Under the pieces are notes generated by a model. It had not been told where the DNA came from, did not search any database, and saw nothing but the letters and a program-made list of their open reading frames with translations. Below, in pieces: positions 12,933 through 32,852 of a stretch of DNA of 41,394 bases; the stretch's first letter is position 1; each line of letters starts with the position of its first letter. Source of the DNA: a virus; the IMG/VR virus record IMGVR_UViG_3300028571_001339, positions 1-41,394 of that record, one strand, 5' to 3'. Made by a program: the position numbers and the translations under genes.

Positions 12933-13316
12933 ATGGCTTATTCTAACAAGGTAATTGATCATTATGAAAATCCCAGAAATGTGGGATCTTTTGGCAAAGA
13001 TGACACAGACATTGGCACAGGCATGGTGGGAGCACCAGCCTGTGGCGATGTAATGAAACTACAAATAAAGGTGGATCATGATACAGGTATTATTACAGAT
13101 GCTCGTTTCAAAACGTATGGCTGCGGATCGGCTATTGCGAGCTCGAGCCTTGTCACAGAGTGGGTCAAGGGCAAAACACTTGACCAAGCAGGATCAATCA
13201 AAAACTCAGACATTGCAGCAGAACTTGCCCTCCCCCCAGTCAAAATCCACTGCTCCATCCTTGCCGAAGACGCCATAAAAGCCGCAGTTGAAGACTACAG
13301 GAAAAAAACATGCTAA
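12933..13316 (+). CDS. iscU: Fe-S cluster assembly scaffold IscU
   Basis: 127 residues, same length as bacterial IscU. It is the scaffold on which [2Fe-2S]/[4Fe-4S] clusters are built with sulfur from IscS. All ligands are present: C37 and D39 (PACGD), C64 (YGCGS), H106 and C107 (KIHCS). The HscA chaperone-recognition motif LPPVK is intact at 100-104, so it should still dock to the host HscA/HscB release machinery. No iscS, hscA, hscB or fdx is present in the window, so it must rely on the host for sulfur and release. It overlaps erpA by 7 bases. Clearly a functional-looking gene and likely host-derived. Confidence 0.95.
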
Positions 13317-13621
13317 CCATAACTGAATCAGCAAAATCAAAAATCTCAGACCTCCTGGTCGAGGAAAACAATCCCAATCTAAAAGTCCGAGTGTTTGTGC
13401 AGGGCGGCGGGTGCTCGGGATTTCAATATGGCTTCACTTTTGATGAAGTCAAAAACGAAGATGACTTTGAAATTGACGGTGTTCTAGCCGATGCCATGAG
13501 CATGCAGTACCTGTCCGGTGCCTTGGTGGATTTCAAAGACGATTTAAATGGAAGTCAATTTGTCATCAACAATCCCAACGCCACAACCACCTGCGGCTGC
13601 GGCAGCAGTTTTGGGGTATGA
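13310..13621 (+). CDS. erpA: A-type Fe-S carrier, ErpA-like
   Basis: 103 residues. It carries assembled clusters to target enzymes. The sequence shows the A-type cysteines C35 ([11 protein letters not shown]), C95 and C97 (TCGCGSSF), and blocks nearly identical to bacterial ErpA ([22 protein letters not shown]). ErpA is usually preceded by a DPMS motif; here it reads DAMS. It overlaps iscU by 7 and the next carrier by 4 bases, so the three are one translational unit. Assignment to ErpA rather than IscA rests on the FQYGF and NNPNAT blocks. Confidence 0.9.
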
Positions 13622-13938
13622 TAACACTCACACCCGCGGCTGAGTCTCAGGTCATACGAGTACTGAGCAAACGAGGTCGCGGGCTTGGCATACGCCTGGG
13701 TGTTAGAACCACTGGTTGCTCGGGACTGGCTTATGTGTTAGAATATGTAGATACACCAGCAGCCGAAGATATCTGCATTGACTGCACACAGTTCAAATTG
13801 TTTGTGGACCCCAAGAGCCATGTGTATCTTGATGGCATGCAAATGGACTTTGTTCGCAATGGGTTAAACGAAGGATTTGAATTTGTCAATCCCAATGAAC
13901 GTGACCGATGTGGCTGCGGTGAAAGTTTTAGAATATAA
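13618..13938 (+). CDS. iscA: A-type Fe-S carrier, IscA-like
   Basis: 106 residues. C34 ([13 protein letters not shown]), C98 and C100 (RCGCGESF) are the three conserved cluster/iron ligands. The GCSGLAY and [14 protein letters not shown] blocks are those of IscA. Two more cysteines (C53, C56) are not part of the family signature. It is the second carrier in the phage operon after ErpA, so the phage brings one scaffold and two delivery proteins but no cysteine desulfurase. ATGA overlap with erpA. Confidence 0.9.
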
Positions 13939-17175: not shown

Positions 17176-19185
17176 ATGACAAGATCAGTTACATCACCAC
17201 TTCAGCTCACAGCAGCCGCTGGCCTGCTTGACAACACTGGCATCAAGGGCCTTCCTGCTGACTTGACAGCGGCATTGTTGGCCTTCAACAGCCTTGTTCC
17301 CATCCAGTACCTGCGCACAGCAATTGATAATTTTGCAGCCAAGACCTATGCTGCCGATGCCACTGCTGCCACCCTGCTGTCATTGCAGAGTCTGGGCGCT
17401 GCCAACTGCCCGGCCCTGGGCGACAGTATTCCTGCTGCCTACACCACACTGACGCCTGTGGTTGATCCAGCCGGCTTTACTGGCTTGATTGAGCAAACTG
17501 GCAATGCCTACCTTGGTGATGGTGATATAGGAAAATTTGCACAGGGCTTTATGGCAGTGCAAGGATATCTTGGTACTACCAACAGTTTTATTGAATCAGC
17601 TGTAAATGCCAACAGTTATCTTGGGCCATTCTTTACCAACATGAATGACCTTGTGACCAACAACATTTACAGTGTCAATCCAGATCTTGAAAATTTTGGA
17701 GTTGATCTAGCACGTCAGGGCAATCTAGTGGATCTAAGCAATCTTGAATTGTATGGAACTCCTGCCGGACTGCTGCAACAAATTTCACAACAGGGAAAAA
17801 TACGCGGAGATACTTTGCCCCTGGTCAAACCTGCATTGCTGGCAACTGGACTGACTGATGCCAACATTGCAGACCTGGTCAATGACAACCGTTATGGCTT
17901 GCTCAACCCCAATGGACTAACGCAGAACGAGTTTGATCAACTTCAGCGCCTGGCCTACAACGCCATGATCAATGTCAAGGACACTGCTTTGCTACAAGTA
18001 CTGGACATCCTTGACGTGACCACACCCAATATTGCCAGCATGGCAGACTTGTTGGATCCAGTCAAGGTATTTCCCTTGAGTTATCAAACTCTACAAACCC
18101 CCACCATCAACGGCCCCATACCAATCTACAACGGCCCTGAGTCGGTGTCATCGGCTGTGGCTCCAGCAGTGGAAGTCAACTTGCCTGTTAACAATGCCTG
18201 TGATGCACTTGGCAAAATAATTCCACAATCCACAGCCACTGCCAACAAAGCAATACAGGTCAGCCTGCAACAAATCAGCAACGTCAACAACACCACATTG
18301 CCTGAATTAGCTGACACTGTGCTGGGCAACACACCACAGTCCTGGGACCCAGTCAACGAGTACACAGCCAATTCAGTGGTGGCTGTGCCGGGCACCACAC
18401 CCACTAACTATCGAGCTCAACAAGACGTGCCACCAGGTGTGGACATTACCAACACTGCCTACTGGGCACCTGCCACGCTGGGCGGATTGAATACCATGTG
18501 TGGCTTGCCCTTGATTGAAGCCCAGACCACTCCAGTGGATGCATCAGTTACCAGTTATTTTGCCAATTCAGTGGCCACTGGATCAGGGGCTGATGGTACC
18601 ATCAACAACAATGATGTGTTGGGCACTGCACTGGGACTTACGCACACTGAATGTTTGGTCAGTGCCACTGCGGTGATGCAAAGTCTCATTACAGCTGGAG
18701 CATTGACTGCACTCACTGCCACCTACAACAGCATGCAGACCGCGGCATCCAATGCTGCCATGCAAGGATTCATTGCCACTGCTACCGGCCAAATTGTCAC
18801 AGTGGTTGCGGGTTATCCCACAGAAGTGGCCACACTCAACACCTGTTTTAACGACATGGCTGCTAGACTGAGTTCAGAAAAAGCATACCAAACACAGGCT
18901 GCAATTGATTACTTTAATCTACAACCTGGAGAAAAAACCAGTGTGCTGGCCTTGGTTCAAAATCTAAACTCCTACGGCCCACAAACTGACGTGGGTGGTC
19001 CAAACAATTTCTTGACTCAAGTGGCTGACACAACTACTCTAACTGGCCAGGCCATGGTAGGGTCATTGCGCCAGGCACAAAACCAAGTTCGGCTTGATGC
19101 CGCTGGCATCAGCACTGCGGCACTGGCAATTCCAGCAGACGCCAAAATAACACCCCCAAGTGGGGTTGATCTAGTTCAATGTTAA
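17176..19185 (+). CDS. Large virion protein, probably tail or baseplate
   Basis: 669 residues, rich in Ala, Thr, Asn and Leu and poor in Lys and Arg. It is mainly helical, with repeated LxxA patterns. Near residues 388-440 it has a short segment (EYTANSVVAVPG...YRAQQDVPPG...YW) resembling a CBM5/12-like surface-binding module. A matching piece is in the tail fibre at 8271. It lies directly behind the PAAR gene, so a baseplate, spike or neck component is likely. No enzymatic motif seen. Several Cys residues are scattered and not paired in an obvious motif. Confidence 0.65.
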   Translation: MTRSVTSPLQLTAAAGLLDNTGIKGLPADLTAALLAFNSLVPIQYLRTAIDNFAAKTYAADATAATLLSLQSLGAANCPALGDSIPAAYTTLTPVVDPAGFTGLIEQTGNAYLGDGDIGKFAQGFMAVQGYLGTTNSFIESAVNANSYLGPFFTNMNDLVTNNIYSVNPDLENFGVDLARQGNLVDLSNLELYGTPAGLLQQISQQGKIRGDTLPLVKPALLATGLTDANIADLVNDNRYGLLNPNGLTQNEFDQLQRLAYNAMINVKDTALLQVLDILDVTTPNIASMADLLDPVKVFPLSYQTLQTPTINGPIPIYNGPESVSSAVAPAVEVNLPVNNACDALGKIIPQSTATANKAIQVSLQQISNVNNTTLPELADTVLGNTPQSWDPVNEYTANSVVAVPGTTPTNYRAQQDVPPGVDITNTAYWAPATLGGLNTMCGLPLIEAQTTPVDASVTSYFANSVATGSGADGTINNNDVLGTALGLTHTECLVSATAVMQSLITAGALTALTATYNSMQTAASNAAMQGFIATATGQIVTVVAGYPTEVATLNTCFNDMAARLSSEKAYQTQAAIDYFNLQPGEKTSVLALVQNLNSYGPQTDVGGPNNFLTQVADTTTLTGQAMVGSLRQAQNQVRLDAAGISTAALAIPADAKITPPSGVDLVQC

Positions 19186-19211: not shown

Positions 19212-19218
19212 CTAAATA
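19212..19218 (+). promoter_or_regulatory. Late promoter box CTAAATA
   Basis: CTAAATA directly abuts the TTGACT -35 of a sigma70-type promoter at 19219. The porin gene could therefore be read both early and late. Confidence 0.55.
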
Positions 19219-19247
19219 TTGACTCTTGTGTACATTTAATGTATACT
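19219..19247 (+). promoter_or_regulatory. Sigma70-type promoter for the porin gene
   Basis: TTGACT, 17-base spacer, TATACT. The transcript start would be near 19254, giving a leader of about 20 bases with an AGGAAAA ribosome site before the ATG at 19275. Confidence 0.75.
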
Positions 19248-19274
19248 ATATACTTCAAACTTTTAGGAAAAATA

Positions 19275-20204
19275 ATGAAGAAACTTGCAGTAATTTTGAC
19301 CCTGGCCCTGGCCTCGGTGGCGGCCCAGGCACAAAGCCAGGTCACAGTGTATGGTCGTATGAACGCATTTGTGATTGACCAAACCACAGGCGGTGTAGAT
19401 GCCGGTGCCACTACGTCAAGCGAAAGCAGCCGAATTGGCATCCGTGCTGTGGAAAATCTTGGTGGCGGCTTGCAAGCTCGTGCCACCATTGAAACATCAG
19501 TTTCCAATGCCGCGCCAGATGCGGGTAGCGATACCAAGCTGGGCAACCGTACCAGCCTTGTGGGCCTAGCCACCAAACAATACAGTGTAGACCTTGGCCG
19601 TGACTATCACAGCCATTTCTGGCTAGTTCGCAGTGTGGATCCGTTCTGGGCCCGCACCATTGGATCAGCCAGCCAAGACGTGCATCACTTCCGTAACAAG
19701 CGACTCAGCAACACAGTATTCTTGCGTGCCGAACCCATCAAGGGCATTCGCTTGGCTCTGGACCGTCAACTCACTAATGACACCACTGGTGCTGGACTTG
19801 CCGAAGCCACTTCAGGATCAGTCACTGCTGATTTGGGTCGTCTCACAGTGGGTGCTGGCCGCTTTGAACAAGGCCTCAATGTCAGCAATGCTGTGATCGG
19901 ACGTGTAAACGTGGGAACTGGATATGTGGGAGTGTCCTACTCTGACGATACCACAGTGACCGCAGGTGTTCGTACCGAAAGCAAGGGCACCTTGCTCAGC
20001 GCCGAACAGTTGATTCCAGGCACACGCATCACTGCCAAGGCCAGCGTGGGTCGTACTGATTCAGGCATGCAAAGCTATGCTGTGGGCGCCGACTATGGCT
20101 TCAGCAAGACTGTGATTGGTCGTGTGATGTATCGCAATGCTGATCATAACGTAAATTCCAAGGATGTGCGTCAAGTGGTTGCAGGCCTAGAATACCGATT
20201 CTAA
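19275..20204 (+). CDS. Outer-membrane porin, betaproteobacterial type
   Basis: 309 residues. Residues 1-19 are a signal peptide (MKKLAVILTLALASVAAQAQ) with an AQA cleavage site. The mature start QVTVYGRMNAF matches Burkholderiales general porins (SVTLYGR). The body is alternating beta strands, and the last residues GLEYRF end in the aromatic Phe required for BAM-dependent barrel insertion. The start is chosen to follow the AGGAAAA site; a longer in-frame start would cover the promoter. It is somewhat short for this porin family. It is monocistronic with its own promoters and terminator. Probably acquired from a host; it may replace a receptor porin or change permeability. Confidence 0.88.
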   Translation: MKKLAVILTLALASVAAQAQSQVTVYGRMNAFVIDQTTGGVDAGATTSSESSRIGIRAVENLGGGLQARATIETSVSNAAPDAGSDTKLGNRTSLVGLATKQYSVDLGRDYHSHFWLVRSVDPFWARTIGSASQDVHHFRNKRLSNTVFLRAEPIKGIRLALDRQLTNDTTGAGLAEATSGSVTADLGRLTVGAGRFEQGLNVSNAVIGRVNVGTGYVGVSYSDDTTVTAGVRTESKGTLLSAEQLIPGTRITAKASVGRTDSGMQSYAVGADYGFSKTVIGRVMYRNADHNVNSKDVRQVVAGLEYRF

Positions 20205-20233
20205 ACACACTGTTGCTTTTTTGCAACACCCAA

Positions 20234-20256
20234 AACCCTGCAATTTGCAGGGTTTT
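20234..20256 (+). terminator. Intrinsic terminator
   Basis: AACCCTGCAA pairs with TTGCAGGGTT (20234-20253) and is followed by a T run. It closes the porin transcript. A second small hairpin (GTTGC-T6-GCAAC, 20212-20227) precedes it. Confidence 0.85.
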
Positions 20257-20263
20257 TTCATGG

Positions 20264-20292
20264 TTGACTGAATATTCATTTTATCTTATAAT
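20264..20292 (+). promoter_or_regulatory. Sigma70-type promoter (leaderless arrangement)
   Basis: TTGACT, 17-base spacer, TATAAT. Six bases separate the -10 from the ATG at 20299, so the message should start at the initiation codon. Confidence 0.8.
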
Positions 20293-20298
20293 ACTTGT

Positions 20299-20703
20299 AT
20301 GATATATTTTGCGTATGGAATGAACACCAATAGAGAGGAAATGCGTCACCGTTGTCGCGGTGCGCTGAGCCTTGGGCCAGCACAACTTCTGGGTCACTCG
20401 TTTCGATTTGCACATCACGCTGATGTGGAACCTTGTGAACACAGTCATGTTGAAGGTGTGGCCTGGCGCATTGACCAGTACCACCTGCAGGCCCTGGACA
20501 GACTCGAGGGCTATCCATGGTACTACGATCGTGTGCAGGCCACAATTTGTCTACGTGACCGCCAACTGCTGGCCTGGGTGTATCGCATGCAACCCGGCAA
20601 TGATCCAGCCTTGCCCAGTCAGCACTATTATGACACTGTCATGGAAGGGTACCAAGTGCATGGTGTGCCCACGGATCAACTGCTGAATGCTGTATTACTT
20701 TAG
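20299..20703 (+). CDS. Gamma-glutamylcyclotransferase-like protein (AIG2/GGCT fold)
   Basis: 134 residues. The substrate loop YGMN (6-9; usually YGSN) and the catalytic-type Glu E70 in DRLEGYPWYY mark the GGCT/AIG2 fold, which cleaves gamma-glutamyl amides to give 5-oxoproline. Possible substrates are gamma-glutamyl peptides or glutathione-type thiols, which would affect the host redox pool, but this is inference. It has its own leaderless promoter and no Shine-Dalgarno sequence. First gene after the porin terminator. Confidence 0.8.
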   Translation: MIYFAYGMNTNREEMRHRCRGALSLGPAQLLGHSFRFAHHADVEPCEHSHVEGVAWRIDQYHLQALDRLEGYPWYYDRVQATICLRDRQLLAWVYRMQPGNDPALPSQHYYDTVMEGYQVHGVPTDQLLNAVLL

Positions 20704-20719
20704 TAGTACAAAATCCTGG

Positions 20720-20748
20720 TTGACCAAAAATCGCCAATTTGCTATAAT
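20720..20748 (+). promoter_or_regulatory. Early-type promoter with conserved spacer
   Basis: TTGACC, 17-base spacer ending GCCAATTTGC, TATAAT; extended -10 (TGC). Leader of about 25 bases carries CAAGGAG. One of a family of near-identical promoters. Confidence 0.85.
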
Positions 20749-20778
20749 ATACACATAGACAGCAACAAGGAGCCCCAA

Positions 20779-21030
20779 ATGCGACACGTATCAGGTTTTA
20801 GTAATAGCACCAAAATTCGCTTTATCGTCAACGGTGTTGGCATGTACGGAACTGTAAACGATGCGTTTACAAAAATAGCCACAGTATCACATGGCGAGGC
20901 AGTTCGCCATGCTGTGAAACATCTGGCAGAAATTCGTCGTCGCAATCCTAACCGAGGCGAAGCTCGCCCGGTGGGTGTTGGTATTACACACGAAGGCATC
21001 CAAGTTCAAGTGGATTTGATGGCCAATTGA
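20779..21030 (+). CDS. Small unknown early-type protein
   Basis: 83 residues starting MRHVSGFSNSTKIRF. Mixed alpha/beta with a basic middle (LAEIRRRNPNRGEARP) and a beta C-terminus (VGVGITHEGIQVQVDLMA). The strong AAGGAG site and private early-type promoter are typical of phage host-takeover genes. Its TGA stop lies inside the TTGACC -35 of the next gene. No family recognised. Confidence 0.6.
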   Translation: MRHVSGFSNSTKIRFIVNGVGMYGTVNDAFTKIATVSHGEAVRHAVKHLAEIRRRNPNRGEARPVGVGITHEGIQVQVDLMAN

Positions 21031-21055
21031 CCAATAATTTGTCTTTTGCTATAAT
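21027..21055 (+). promoter_or_regulatory. Early-type promoter
   Basis: TTGACC, 17-base spacer, TATAAT, extended TGC. The TGA within the -35 is the stop codon of the gene ending at 21030. Confidence 0.85.
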
Positions 21056-21085
21056 ACTTGTATAGAAACTAAAAAGGAACTTGCA

Positions 21086-21418
21086 ATGATTACTCATGGA
21101 GATATGGTTGTTTACAAGAACATCGGCACTTACCATCTTGTACAAGATGATGGCTATGATGAAGACTCTGACACATGGTACGACCCCGAAGAACAGCACT
21201 ATGAGGTGCGCCACTTCTCAGGTCTAACAGTGACCGCTAACTCTGTAAAAGAGTGCAAGAAGTGCCTGGATGACTTTGAAGTCACTGCCCGCGAAATCCA
21301 CGAGGCCATCAACAAGTTGGCCTTGTACGGCTATCGTGTGTTTAAAGAACATGAGTATCAAGATACCTGTACAGACCCCAACGGCCTAAAGGCATTCGCT
21401 CGAGACTTCCTGCCCTAA
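21086..21418 (+). CDS. Acidic unknown early-type protein
   Basis: 110 residues, very acidic in the first half (QDDGYDEDSDTWYDPEEQHYE), starting MITHGDMVVYKNIG. A central CKKC pair (about 52-55) and a helical second half with HEAINKLALYGYRVFKEHE. An acidic, DNA-mimic-like N-terminus is one possibility for an inhibitor of a host nucleic-acid enzyme, but nothing proves it. AAAAAGGAA ribosome site; own promoter and terminator. Confidence 0.6.
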   Translation: MITHGDMVVYKNIGTYHLVQDDGYDEDSDTWYDPEEQHYEVRHFSGLTVTANSVKECKKCLDDFEVTAREIHEAINKLALYGYRVFKEHEYQDTCTDPNGLKAFARDFLP

Positions 21419-21423
21419 GACTT

Positions 21424-21448
21424 GTGTGGCTTTTTAGCCACACTTGTT
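21424..21448 (+). terminator. Intrinsic terminator
   Basis: GTGTGGCT/AGCCACAC with a TTTT loop (21424-21443) and following TTGTTT. It ends the transcript of the gene closing at 21418. Confidence 0.8.
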
Positions 21449-21451
21449 TGA

Positions 21452-21480
21452 TTGACCGATAAATCCCAATTTCGTATAAT
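21452..21480 (+). promoter_or_regulatory. Early-type promoter
   Basis: TTGACC, 17-base spacer containing CCCAATTT, TATAAT. It lacks the extended TG (TCG instead). It starts four bases after the terminator. Confidence 0.8.
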
Positions 21481-21511
21481 AGAAGTATAGTAAGAAAACA
21501 AGGAGCTAGCA

Positions 21512-21787
21512 ATGAGTACAATCTATCAAGCATTATCTGAGCAAGAAAAACGCCAAGTTCGTATGTATGGTGTCACAGAAGCAGGTATGCGTGAGGCTGT
21601 TGAATCTAGCCCAACATTCAAGCATTCTGGACCTGCTATGATGGCCGCTAGCATCATGTCTGACGTTCAAGAAATCATCGATCCAGAATACGGAGAGTTG
21701 GATTTTATGCGGGCCGAAGATGCTCGCCAGGCCCTGAATCGTGCCAAATGGATCTTGTTTGAATACTGTGAAACACGTCGCGGTTGA
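21512..21787 (+). CDS. Small helical unknown early-type protein
   Basis: 91 residues, starting MSTIYQALSEQEKRQVRMYG. Predicted all-helical; no cysteine until C87 near the end. AAGGAGC ribosome site. The stop TGA is embedded in the TTGACC -35 of the next promoter. Nothing recognisable as a domain. Confidence 0.6.
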   Translation: MSTIYQALSEQEKRQVRMYGVTEAGMREAVESSPTFKHSGPAMMAASIMSDVQEIIDPEYGELDFMRAEDARQALNRAKWILFEYCETRRG

Positions 21788-21812
21788 CCCAAAATTCCCA
21801 ATTTGCTATAAT
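21784..21812 (+). promoter_or_regulatory. Early-type promoter with conserved spacer
   Basis: TTGACC, spacer CAAAATTCCCAATTTGC, TATAAT; extended TGC. It overlaps the stop codon of the upstream gene. Confidence 0.85.
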
Positions 21813-26726: not shown

Positions 26727-27929
26727 ATGAAAAAAGACATACCTGATACATGTAGTTTTTGTGGCAAACACAAAGATGCAGTGACCAAACTCATTGTTGG
26801 CGACACTGTTGCAATCTGCAACGAGTGCGTAGAACTCTGCGACTCATTGCTGACCGATGAAACATTGCCAGTGCCCAGTTCTAAACCCACTCTGGATCCA
26901 ATTCGTATTAAATCACATCTTGACCAGTATGTCATTGGTCAGGACCTGGCCAAGCAAGTGCTGGCAGTGGCCATTGTGAATCACTACAAACGCATCAACA
27001 ATTTGCGGTCTGACACTGAGATAGAAAAATGCAATATTCTCATGCTGGGTCCCACTGGTTCAGGCAAAACACTGCTGGCTCGCAGTGTGGCTCGTTATCT
27101 TGATGTGCCATTTGTAATTGCCGATGCCACCAGCCTTACAGAAGCAGGGTATGTGGGCGATGACGTTGAAAGCCTTATCAGCAGACTGTTTGCCGCAGCC
27201 GGTGGCGATGTGGAAAAAACACAGCAAGGTATTGTGTTCATTGACGAAATTGACAAAATCAGTCGGCGCAGTGAGAGTGCCAGTATCACGCGAGATGTGT
27301 CAGGAGAAGGTGTTCAACAGGCCCTGCTCAAACTAGTGGAAGGCACCAAGTGCAGAGTAACTCCCACTGGCAATCGCAAACATCCCAGTGGTGACATGGT
27401 TGAAATTGACACCACAAACATCTTGTTCATTGCCGGCGGCGCATTTGTGGGCTTGGACACCGTGGTCAAGAATCGTGTCAAGGGCACATCAATTGGGTTT
27501 GCAGCCGACCTAAACAAGCACACCGAACAAACCACCTTGACACAGACCACACCCGAAGACCTGATCAAGTTTGGCATGATTCCTGAGTTTGTGGGACGTT
27601 TCCCCAGTTGGGTAGCTCTGCAAGAACTCACACAAGAGGACTTGGTAAAAATTCTCACTGATGTAAAACACAACTATGTTTCACAATATCGTTGGTTGTT
27701 TGCTCAGGACAAGATTGAATTGAACTTTGATTCCCTGGCCTTGGATTTGATTGCTCAGCGCACCATGACCAGTCGCACTGGTGCTCGAGGATTGCACAGC
27801 GAACTGGAACGTGCGTTGTTGCCACACATGTTCAATTTGGTTAAATACCGTGAGCAAGGGATTGAACAAGTCAATATTGACATTGACATGATTACCAGCC
27901 CTGGACCACTCAAAACAGCAAATGAATAA
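26727..27929 (+). CDS. clpX: ClpX AAA+ unfoldase
   Basis: 400 residues. It has an N-terminal zinc-binding domain with C9, C12, C31 and C34; a Walker A GPTGSGKT (108-115); a Walker B FIDEID (171-176); the pore-1 loop GYVG (141-144); the RKH pore loop (NRKHPSGD); and a TGARGL sensor-2 motif. The ClpP-docking IGF tripeptide is intact at 256-258, so it may couple to the host ClpP. No clpP occurs in the window. In a phage it could redirect proteolysis or unfold host or virion proteins. It overlaps the bS21 gene by 8 bases. Confidence 0.95.
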
Positions 27930-28146
27930 ATTACACGGTAGATCAGTTCTGGTGCAAGATGGCAATGTAGATCGGGCCCTGCGCAAATTCAAGAAAAAAA
28001 TTCAGGAGTCAGGCCTGCTGGATGATTTGCGCAATCGAGAATGTTACATCAAGCCTACTACCGAACGCAAGCTCAAGGCAGCGGCCGCAAAAAAACGCTG
28101 GCAGCGAAAACTGCGCGATCAAGAGCTTCCTAAAAAAATGTATTGA
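27922..28146 (+). CDS. rpsU: Ribosomal protein bS21
   Basis: 74 residues. The pattern [19 protein letters not shown] followed by [12 protein letters not shown] and a basic KRWQRKLR tail is bS21. The protein sits on the 30S platform near the anti-Shine-Dalgarno helix and affects initiation. Phage bS21 genes are documented in aquatic viruses and can replace the host copy. It overlaps clpX by 8 bases and the following gene by one. The family match is clear; the effect on translation in this phage is inferred. Confidence 0.93.
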
Positions 28147-28406
28147 TGTACATTGAGTTTGCTCTACCGGGCGGTTCGGGTGGAATGGCAGCAGCCATGG
28201 CCAGTCAGAAATTGGATCAAGCCATCAAAGCCTGGGCCAACCGGTATGAAATTGAATATCGTACAAAAAATGTCAAATACAAGAAACGTGTGACATTTGA
28301 CGATGAACGCTGTTATGAGTTTTTTCTGTTGACCTGGCAACCAGTTGATCAGCAAAATTTTTGGACAACATATCGCCTGGTAACTGACCTAAATAATAAA
28401 ATATAA
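28146..28406 (+). CDS. Small unknown protein behind bS21
   Basis: 86 residues from the ATG at 28146, which overlaps the bS21 stop (TGATG). Starts [19 protein letters not shown], then a basic region (YRTKNVKYKKRVTFDDERCY) and a Trp-rich end. The glycine-rich opening looks like a flexible or nucleotide-loop region, but it is not a P-loop. Expressed with clpX and bS21. Unknown function. Confidence 0.6.
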   Translation: MYIEFALPGGSGGMAAAMASQKLDQAIKAWANRYEIEYRTKNVKYKKRVTFDDERCYEFFLLTWQPVDQQNFWTTYRLVTDLNNKI

Positions 28407-28422
28407 TTTTTTTTCGTGTATA

Positions 28423-28429
28423 ATAAATA
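28423..28429 (+). promoter_or_regulatory. Late promoter box ATAAATA
   Basis: TAATAAATA upstream of the heat-shock gene, 62 bases before its ATG. A second CTAAATA occurs at 28389-28395 within the end of the previous gene. A TATAAT also overlaps at 28419 but without a good -35. Confidence 0.55.
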
Positions 28430-28433
28430 ACTG

Positions 28434-28457
28434 TGTAGTGCCCATGGTGGGGCTACA
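28434..28457 (+). promoter_or_regulatory. 5' leader hairpin and conserved ribosome site of hsp20
   Basis: TGTAG pairs with CTACA and CCC with GGG, with a G-U pair and one bulge, just after the late box. The rest of the leader holds CTTGCTTAATAAAGGAGAA (28468-28486), which recurs almost unchanged before the phasin-like gene at 40154-40172. Confidence 0.5.
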
Positions 28458-28491
28458 TCAAAGTCATCTTGCTTAATAAAGGAGAAAACAA

Positions 28492-28944
28492 ATGACAAAA
28501 ACTCTCACCCTTCGCTCTTTCGACATTCCCACACTCACCAAATTTGGTATCGGTTTTGATAACATGTTTGATGAACTCATGCGTGTGAGTGCTCAGCAAA
28601 GCTCAACAAACTATCCACCCTACAACATTGTACAAATCAACGAAGATGAGTACATGATCAGTCTTGCCGTGGCCGGGTTTGGGCTTGATAATCTCTCAGT
28701 TACCAAGGACAAAAAGTTCTTGATCATTGAAGGCAAAGAATATCAGAGTGACAGCGAAAAGATTGTGCCAAACTACCTGCACAAAGGCATCAGCAACAGA
28801 AATTTCCGTAGAGAATTTCAGTTAGCAGATCATGTGGAGATTACCAATGCGCATCTTGAACTTGGCATCTTGAACGTTCACTTACGACGTGAAGTTCCTG
28901 AGGAAGCCAAGCCAAAGGCCATTGCTATCACGTACACAGCCTAA
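28492..28944 (+). CDS. hsp20: Small heat-shock protein (Hsp20/IbpA family)
   Basis: 150 residues. The alpha-crystallin domain runs from about residue 40 to 140 (PPYNIVQINEDEYMISLAVAGF... GILNVHLRREVP). It ends in an extended tail with an AIAITYTA segment, where the I-x-I-type motif usually mediates oligomer contacts. Such proteins hold unfolded proteins and feed them to other chaperones or proteases. T4-like cyanophages carry hsp20 as a late gene, and here a late box, leader hairpin and strong AAGGAG site fit high late expression. It lies between clpX/bS21 and clpS. Confidence 0.92.
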   Translation: MTKTLTLRSFDIPTLTKFGIGFDNMFDELMRVSAQQSSTNYPPYNIVQINEDEYMISLAVAGFGLDNLSVTKDKKFLIIEGKEYQSDSEKIVPNYLHKGISNRNFRREFQLADHVEITNAHLELGILNVHLRREVPEEAKPKAIAITYTA

Positions 28945-28953
28945 TATAATTGT

Positions 28954-28960
28954 GTAAATA
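28954..28960 (+). promoter_or_regulatory. Late promoter box GTAAATA
   Basis: GTAAATA lies 40 bases before the clpS ATG and immediately before a perfect 11-bp hairpin. Confidence 0.5.
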
Positions 28961-28985
28961 CAGTGGCAGCACTGTGCTGCCACTG
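28961..28985 (+). promoter_or_regulatory. Strong 5' leader hairpin of clpS
   Basis: CAGTGGCAGCA / TGCTGCCACTG with a CTG loop: a perfect 11-bp stem at the predicted transcript start. No T run follows on the plus strand, so it is not a usual intrinsic terminator. Confidence 0.6.
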
Positions 28986-29000
28986 CAACAAGGATAAAAC

Positions 29001-29309
29001 ATGCCACAAACCGACTCAGTTGTTAAAATTAAACCTGTCACGGACATCAAGGAGCCGCCAATGTATCGCGTGGTTTATATCAATGACAATCAAACCACCA
29101 TGGAATTTGTGATTGAAAGTTTGATTGAATACTTTAACTACACCGCAGAAACTGCTGAACGTATCACTGTGGATATTCACGAAGCCGGCTCAGCTGTGGT
29201 AGCTGTGTTACCATATGAACTGGCCGAACAAAAAGGCATTGAAGTCACATTGAGTGCTCGAGCACAAAGCTATCCCTTGCAGATCAAACTAGAACCTGAA
29301 GAAAATTAA
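29001..29309 (+). CDS. clpS: ClpS-family N-degron adaptor
   Basis: 102 residues. MYRVVYINDNQTTMEFVIESL and the VDIHEAGSAVVAVLPYELAE block mark ClpS, which delivers N-end-rule substrates to ClpA-ClpP. Pocket residues read N28, D29, M34 and H60. The usual third acidic residue (D36 in E. coli ClpS) is N30 here, which may change which N-terminal residues are bound. Host ClpS works with ClpA, whereas the only unfoldase in this window is ClpX. It overlaps the convergent phosphoesterase by 4 bases. Confidence 0.88.
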   Translation: MPQTDSVVKIKPVTDIKEPPMYRVVYINDNQTTMEFVIESLIEYFNYTAETAERITVDIHEAGSAVVAVLPYELAEQKGIEVTLSARAQSYPLQIKLEPEEN

Positions 29310-31460: not shown

Positions 31461-32104
31461 CTTGCTAGCAGTTCATTTGTGAAATTCAACAACAATTCAT
31501 GATGTCGATAGTTGTGCCAATTTGGCTTTAGGTGTGGTTTGTCGTACCAACTGGGCAGGGCTTCGGGATGACACCCAATCACACCTATGCGGTTCTGAAC
31601 AATGGCCATGGGATCATTGTTTGGGTACCTGGCAACAGTGTCAAACTGACTCTCATCACCGATCAAACTGCACCCGTCATAAAAGTACATGTGTTCTTGA
31701 TGGCCTTGCCAGGACACCTTGGAAACTGTGCCAAAACTGCGTCTAACATCAGCATTGGGTCTTTTTATATATTGTTCTGCTGTTACACTGCGCAGTATGT
31801 CCAGGTAGTGATGTCCGGCCCAGTATGCACCCATGCATATTCCCAGATAACGCCCGCCATTGCTGAGGTAGTCCTTGATGTAGCCGGCTCGAGGTTTCAC
31901 CAATTTGTCAAAAGTGTCACTGTTGCCAATGCCCCCGGGAAATGCCACAATGTCTAGATTTTTAAACAACTTGGAGTTGATTTGATCTCGATTGAAAAAT
32001 CTAACTTGGTAATGTGGGTGCAGGGCTTCGTACATGCCAACACAACAGTGTGCTGAACATTCGGGATGATTTAGAAATATTGCTATTCTAGGTTTTGTTA
32101 TCAT
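31457..32104 (-). CDS. Class I glutamine-amidotransferase-like (BPL_N) protein
   Basis: 215 residues from the ATG at 32104; a longer in-frame start lies inside the upstream gene. The nucleophile elbow GICMGAY and a downstream GCHPEALP block match the amidotransferase/DJ-1-like fold of the biotin-protein-ligase N-terminal (BPL_N) family. PGGIGNSDTFDKL is the usual oxyanion-loop region. The role is not known; in bacteria such proteins occur near envelope genes. Overlaps the LpxH-like gene by 17 bases and the GT4 gene by 4. Confidence 0.75.
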   Translation of the reverse strand: MITKPRIAIFLNHPECSAHCCVGMYEALHPHYQVRFFNRDQINSKLFKNLDIVAFPGGIGNSDTFDKLVKPRAGYIKDYLSNGGRYLGICMGAYWAGHHYLDILRSVTAEQYIKRPNADVRRSFGTVSKVSWQGHQEHMYFYDGCSLIGDESQFDTVARYPNNDPMAIVQNRIGVIGCHPEALPSWYDKPHLKPNWHNYRHHELLLNFTNELLAR

Positions 32105-32852
32105 GTGCTGTGGTCCATGTGACAATTTCCCAACGTCCGTCATGATGTTCAACCAAGGCAGTCATTGACTCAACCCAGTCGCCGTCATTCATGTACATGA
32201 CACCGTTGATTTCCTTGATTTCTGCATGATGTATGTGTCCACAGATGACACCGTCAAAGCCACGCTTCTTGCAGTAGCCTGCTAGATTTTCTTCAAACTT
32301 GAATACAAAATCAACTGCTTTTTTCACACGGTACTTGAGAAACTTGCTCAGGCTCCAGTAACCAAAGCCCAGTCGGTGCCTTATCCAATTGAATCTGCTG
32401 TTCATGGAAAGAATAAAATCGTATGCTTTGTCTCCCAAGAATGCCAACCATGGTGCCAGTCTAGTGATGCCATCAAACATGTCTCCGTGGGTGACCAGGT
32501 AGTGTTTGCCGTCGGCGCCGATGTGTTCTGTTTGATTGCATATTTCTATGCTGCCAAAGCTGGCAGCATATGGAATCATGGGCCGCAAAAACTCATCATG
32601 ATTGCCGGCCACATACACAACTCGGGTGCCACGCTTGGCATGGCCCAGTACTCTTCGTACCACATTGGTGTGACTTTGTTTCCAGCGCAGTTGATTTTGC
32701 TGTATTTTCCAAGCATCAATTATGTCGCCCACTAGATACAGCGTAAAACAGGTGTTGTATTTGAGAAAATTGTTCAACTGCTCGGCCTTGCAGTCTCGTG
32801 TGCCTAGATGTACATCGCTGACAAAGATAGATCTGTAGGTTTTGGCTTGCAT
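32088..32852 (-). CDS. LpxH-like metallophosphoesterase (UDP-diacylglucosamine hydrolase family)
   Basis: 254 residues. Motifs SDVHLGT (D-x-H), GDIIDAW (GDxxD), GNHDEF (GNHD), THGD and GHIHHAEI (GHxH) appear in order, as in LpxH-type phosphoesterases that release lipid X in lipid A synthesis. The homologous bacterial enzymes often sit beside a GT4 glycosyltransferase, as here. Likely substrate is a nucleotide-linked lipid or sugar, but not proven. Starts three bases after the previous gene's stop and is tightly coupled to the gene at 32104. Confidence 0.85.
   Translation of the reverse strand: MQAKTYRSIFVSDVHLGTRDCKAEQLNNFLKYNTCFTLYLVGDIIDAWKIQQNQLRWKQSHTNVVRRVLGHAKRGTRVVYVAGNHDEFLRPMIPYAASFGSIEICNQTEHIGADGKHYLVTHGDMFDGITRLAPWLAFLGDKAYDFILSMNSRFNWIRHRLGFGYWSLSKFLKYRVKKAVDFVFKFEENLAGYCKKRGFDGVICGHIHHAEIKEINGVMYMNDGDWVESMTALVEHHDGRWEIVTWTTAHDNKT

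Follow-up and report, generated by a model that had tools for sequence, protein, structure and literature searches.

The porin gene and its flanking signals

The window (the whole stretch of DNA analysed here) is a complete IMG/VR virus record of 41,394 b. On its + strand lies a porin gene with control signals of its own (Table 1); the GC content of the gene is 54%, versus 47% for the window. We placed the start at the ATG behind the AGGA sequence, while the mechanical list of ORFs gives 19239 instead. The porin features named in the original prediction were all found: an ORF with a signal peptide, a barrel (Porin_4 match, predicted strands) and Phe as the last residue. The closing terminator exists as well, though just beyond the end assigned to the feature (20204); absent from the list of a simple scan, it was read from the sequence.

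Table 1. Features of the porin locus and of the encoded protein
Feature	Position	Strand	Basis or conservation
Late-promoter-like box CTAAATA	19212..19218	+	[ACG]TAAATA enriched upstream of ORFs in the phage group; not kept in L003
Sigma70-type promoter TTGACT-N17-TATACT	19219..19247	+	Equivalent upstream of 10/11 scored phage porins
Shine-Dalgarno AGGA	19265..19268	+	Sequence
Porin, 309 aa	19275..20204	+	Pfam match, AF2 model, PDB match
Extra hairpin TGTTGC-TTTTTT-GCAACA, between stop codon and terminator	20211..20228	+	Hairpin of different sequence at the same place in L003, L004, L009 and L072
Intrinsic terminator CCCTGC-AATTT-GCAGGG-TTTTTT	20236..20258	+	Terminator-like hairpin after every homologue examined
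Signal peptide	residues ~1-19
Loop L3	residues 112-142
Terminal Phe	residue 309

The summed score of the sigma70-type promoters of the scored homologues was 106, as compared with a mean of 85 and a maximum of 95 in shuffles. The motif [ACG]TAAATA was present upstream of ORFs in 13 of 50 cases in the window (1.4 expected), 39 of 270 in record G006 (6.2 expected), 19 of 112 in G002 (1.9 expected) and 27 of 95 in G012 (7.7 expected); T as its first letter was rare. As this is a real upstream motif, located mostly 22-38 nt before ATG, it is probably the late promoter of the phage group. The CTAAATA of the window porin is situated 63 nt before ATG, outside the usual range. Late-type boxes were seen upstream of 5 of 14 porins (window, L004, L009, L015 and L072; 0.9 expected); none was present upstream of the porin of L003, the closest diverged homologue. 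Thus, the late promoter was rejected as a conserved element of the family, although the motif class to which the box belongs is real, being enriched upstream of genes in these phages. Of the dual early and late control originally proposed, the early-type promoter is well supported; the late one, plausible in the window, is not a family trait.

The hairpin preceding the terminator, which persists as its sequence changes, may point to a 3′-end RNA; we treat it as a lead only, and a search of Rfam and for tRNAs gave no match. With its sigma70-type promoter, strong ribosome site and terminator, the porin appears to be a stand-alone cassette, kept while its genomic position changed. The marks of a moron (a single gene, own promoter and terminator, variable position in the genome) were all found at the level of sequence.

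Directly after the porin, at 20264-21812, there is a series of small genes that look like early-type units, every one of them preceded by a TTGAC[CT]-N17-TATAAT promoter. On the other side, at 17176-19185 and directly after the gene of a PAAR-like protein, is the gene of a 669-aa protein, 27-53% conserved in related contigs, for which no match was found in Pfam, PHROG or GenBank phages.

Porin homologues in related phages

Five scans of viral contigs yielded 17 further IMG/VR records with porin homologues, one identical and the others 32-83% identical, in T4-like contigs of up to 349 kb. Porins are normally cellular, and the difference in GC content could also make one suspect a host/phage assembly chimera or bacterial contamination. 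We rejected this explanation and leave it practically no weight: a contig from a different metagenome (L002) is 99.6% identical to the window over 9,480 b, both junctions included, and synteny was observed in seven more records. The junctions, where the original prediction saw its own weak point, are therefore real. In L003, a 115-kb contig, a porin 83% identical in protein occupies the same locus as in the window, between the nrdA-nrdB-glutaredoxin-PAAR-~670-aa block and the gene of an ATP-dependent DNA ligase. The nrdB-to-ligase context is common to L004, L005, L009 and L013 (porin of the last 40% identical); synteny in L014 (porin 40% identical) and L073 (partial porin, 34%) extends up to the ~670-aa gene, where the contig ends or was cut. 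No close cellular match was found, and two scans of cellular genome contigs gave no relative.

Most of the window is syntenic with positions 173-215 kb of G006, a 349-kb record encoding a T4-type gp23 (E 1.6e-97). This and the T4-like gene content bear out the claim that the porin is carried by a T4-like phage. G006 has no porin at the window's locus; its porin sits at 341.6 kb, beside a metallophosphatase gene which is that found at 32088-32852 in the window.

Across the related phages, the porin was found in at least four genomic settings: (i) the nrd/ligase locus; (ii) beside TctC/DctP solute receptors (L006, L007, L012 and L062); (iii) in an apparent virion-gene block (L008, L010 and L011, the last with a tail sheath akin to the sheaths of PA5oct- and Atu_ph07-like jumbo phages); (iv) in L072, beside glycosyltransferase- and methyltransferase-like genes, as read by eye. 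Each of seven records tested had a single porin match. The values of dN/dS were 0.12-0.20 in diverged pairs and 0.25-0.31 in very close comparisons with L009, which indicates purifying selection. The porin gene thus appears to be resident in a group of phages that are T4-like and in part jumbo. A tblastn search with two divergent phage porins gave no match in 50,697 GenBank phages, a search that would also miss the distant Lc porin; the PF17236 capsid profile had no match anywhere and was uninformative.

Cellular matches were porins on Burkholderiales plasmids, 23-33% identical. In a tree, 14 phage porins separated from eight such plasmid-borne porins with support of 100/100. With so few cellular porins sampled and with long branches joining, the single phage branch does not by itself show a single acquisition. 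The porin had been called betaproteobacterial, and a phylogeny was proposed as the way to its host clade; a broad Porin_4/Omp32/PorB-like ancestry holds, but no host clade could be named, because the phage porins form a separate branch ~25-30% identical to the Burkholderiales porins sampled.

Two other gene groups of the window deserve mention. An IscU-like (NifU_N) gene followed by two IscA/ErpA-like Fe-S_biosyn genes (12933-13938) adjoins the genes of class Ia ribonucleotide reductase, and this Fe-S assembly set is conserved in G006 and G002. Genes of a ClpX-like ATPase with a zinc finger, an Hsp20 and a ClpS adaptor are clustered at 26727-29309, which suggests phage control of host Clp proteolysis.

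Predicted fold, loops and pore residues

The window porin matches Pfam family Porin_4 (PF13609) with E = 2.5e-22 and 80.5 bits (cut-off 27), and the profile cut-off was passed in all seven phage records tested; PHROG families gave no match for it. A signal-peptide-like N-terminus and a C-terminal Phe are conserved across the aligned homologues. A first AF2 model was weak (pLDDT 61); it was superseded by a model from 17 sequences (pLDDT 81.4, pTM 0.76) showing a 16-strand barrel with an L3 helix at 113-119. The closest solved structure found by Foldseek was Omp32 with malate (TM 0.79, E 1.5e-16), followed by Omp32 (anion-selective), BpsOmp38 and PorB; OmpF/OmpC-type structures scored below the Omp32/PorB ones. 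The protein is thus predicted to be a 16-strand barrel of the Porin_4/Omp32/PorB class. It is like Omp32 of Comamonas (Delftia) acidovorans and neisserial PorB, both 16-strand barrels of Porin_4 type, in predicted fold, in the helix-bearing L3, in a VTxYG start, in the motif SR-x-G-x-R ... E-x-LG-x-GL and in the terminal Phe; it differs in being viral and only ~20% identical to them.

Loops L4-L8 total 17-27 aa in the phage porins as compared with 34-92 aa in the eight cellular ones (Mann-Whitney p 9e-5, relatedness ignored), with L3 retained; the loop limits were taken from the window model and transferred by alignment. All 17 phage porins in the alignment have Arg or His at position 53 and Arg at position 92; these two positions and position 73 (Glu/Asp) are conserved and largely common to the cellular porins too. 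Arg140, Arg164 and Arg287, on the other hand, are nearly invariant in the phage porins and absent from the eight cellular ones; from residue alternation, Arg287 and Arg140, at the end of L3, are expected to face the pore. In a weak alignment, Arg53 and Glu73 of the window porin correspond to Arg38 and Glu58 of Omp32, which we take to be eyelet residues.

A literature search for phage porins found little. Lc of lambdoid phage PA-2 (as well as NmpC of a defective prophage) is a phage-borne general porin with its own promoter; the porin transcript of PA-2 also yields the sRNA IpeX. The window porin shares with Lc a location inside a phage genome and an own promoter. Lc, however, belongs to a temperate lambdoid phage and is of the enterobacterial OmpC/OmpF type, whereas gp23 in G006, the T4-like gene content and the fold ranking indicate T4-like phages with a porin of Omp32/PorB type. 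Two marine viral contigs with the gene order glnK-amtB-ompL offer a precedent for a viral porin beside an ammonium transporter; their OmpL, considered probably functional by the authors, is said to derive from Bacteroidetes (Flavobacteriales) (PMC8115048). As in some relatives of the window porin, a virus-borne porin stands beside a nutrient gene; the partners of OmpL are amtB and glnK, those of the phage porins TctC/DctP. A porin fold is also predicted for two viral metagenome proteins in BFVD, A0A6J5L4P1 and A0A6J5LP82 ('OmpC Outer membrane protein (Porin) [uncultured Caudovirales phage]'), which are 15-16% identical to the window porin.

Possible roles during infection

The best reading, to which we would give about an even chance, is uptake: the porin would let small anions in and so feed the infection. 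Membership in the Omp32/PorB class, additional arginines and solute-binding genes nearby suggest this. The porin would be expressed from early infection on (in the window phage perhaps late too), exported by Sec and folded by Bam; in the outer membrane of the host it would give a 16-strand pore of Omp32/PorB type that is probably a trimer and prefers anions. We infer expression, trimer, anion preference and benefit to the phage alike. Through such a pore, small anionic nutrients (di- and tricarboxylates, phosphate) would enter at a raised or maintained rate after expression of the host genes has been shut off by the phage.

Uptake genes, the neighbours that a phage transport AMG would be expected to have, are found near some of the porins. 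Those of L006, L007, L012 and L062 have TctC and/or DctP receptors within ~5 kb, and a PstS-like protein is encoded near the L007 porin; a PstS-like neighbour occurs in G006. Besides the receptors, these four islands hold conserved ~400-aa proteins beside the porin; membrane permeases for the viral tricarboxylate/TRAP receptors were not in view. Pairing of a porin with a TRAP receptor exists in bacteria, as a Comamonas plasmid carries a TRAP solute-binding gene directly upstream of a porin. No solute-binding gene adjoins the porin in the window or in its nearest relatives at the nrd/ligase locus, and TctC was not found in G000, G002 and G012, all of which may be fragments.

Loops as short as these are no specific sign of uptake. 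Since outer loops are what phages and bacteriocins grip, a nearly bare porin with the pore loop L3 kept could serve, as Lc does, for receptor replacement or superinfection exclusion: the infected cell would display less of the host porin, possibly with the help of a 3′-end RNA. The early-type promoter would suit such a role, and so would the extra hairpin seen in several members, given that IpeX, an sRNA from a phage porin transcript, lowers OmpC (PMC12197685). Against it, old porins persist in a lytic infection, so that active removal or masking would be required; we saw no sign of a porin serving as receptor for the phage or for its rivals, the hairpin has no Rfam match, and loop trimming may be mere genome economy. 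Because lytic infection cannot dilute the old porins, and because solute-binding genes near the porins of four relatives speak for uptake, we do not favour the receptor replacement suggested in the original prediction; the trimmed loops keep the idea alive as a doubtful possibility, weaker than uptake, with which it is mutually compatible.

The late-type boxes, more frequent upstream of porins than expected, and the place of three porins in an apparent virion-gene block, with a tail sheath in L011, could instead suggest a role in the envelope: as a long jumbo-phage infection proceeds, the porin would maintain an outer membrane that is stable and porous or, if made late, aid lysis. This is an improbable role in our view: the sigma70-type promoter is more conserved than the late box, the solute-binding neighbours would be left unexplained and porins of the Omp32/PorB-type fold are not known to lyse cells. 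It is very improbable that the protein is a virion component, for which a signal peptide would be odd, or a passive passenger gene with no function for the phage. The variable position between related phages, with G006 lacking a porin at the window's locus, would agree with a passenger, but the low dN/dS of diverged pairs, the single porin match in each of the seven records tested and the conserved signal peptide and terminal Phe speak against it; purifying selection, as estimated from the sequences, largely refutes this version.

Returning to uptake, one could speculate further that T4-like jumbo phages have made of a host Omp32-type porin a viral family, loop-bare and enriched in arginine, that both feeds the cell with anionic nutrients and denies competitors a grip, with phage-borne TctC/DctP/PstS-like receptors assisting the feeding in some lineages; taken as a whole, this is an unlikely proposal. 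The nutrient genes so far known from phages work, for the most part, within the cell or the periplasm. A viral porin that is conserved and has trimmed loops, with virus-encoded solute-binding proteins next to it in some lineages, would extend this to the host outer membrane, whose entry step the phages would be rebuilding. With a single protein, two long-standing ideas can be put to a direct test, the supply of nutrients to the infected cell and the exclusion of rivals at its surface, and the findings suggest infected cells fitted with a viral nutrient pore.
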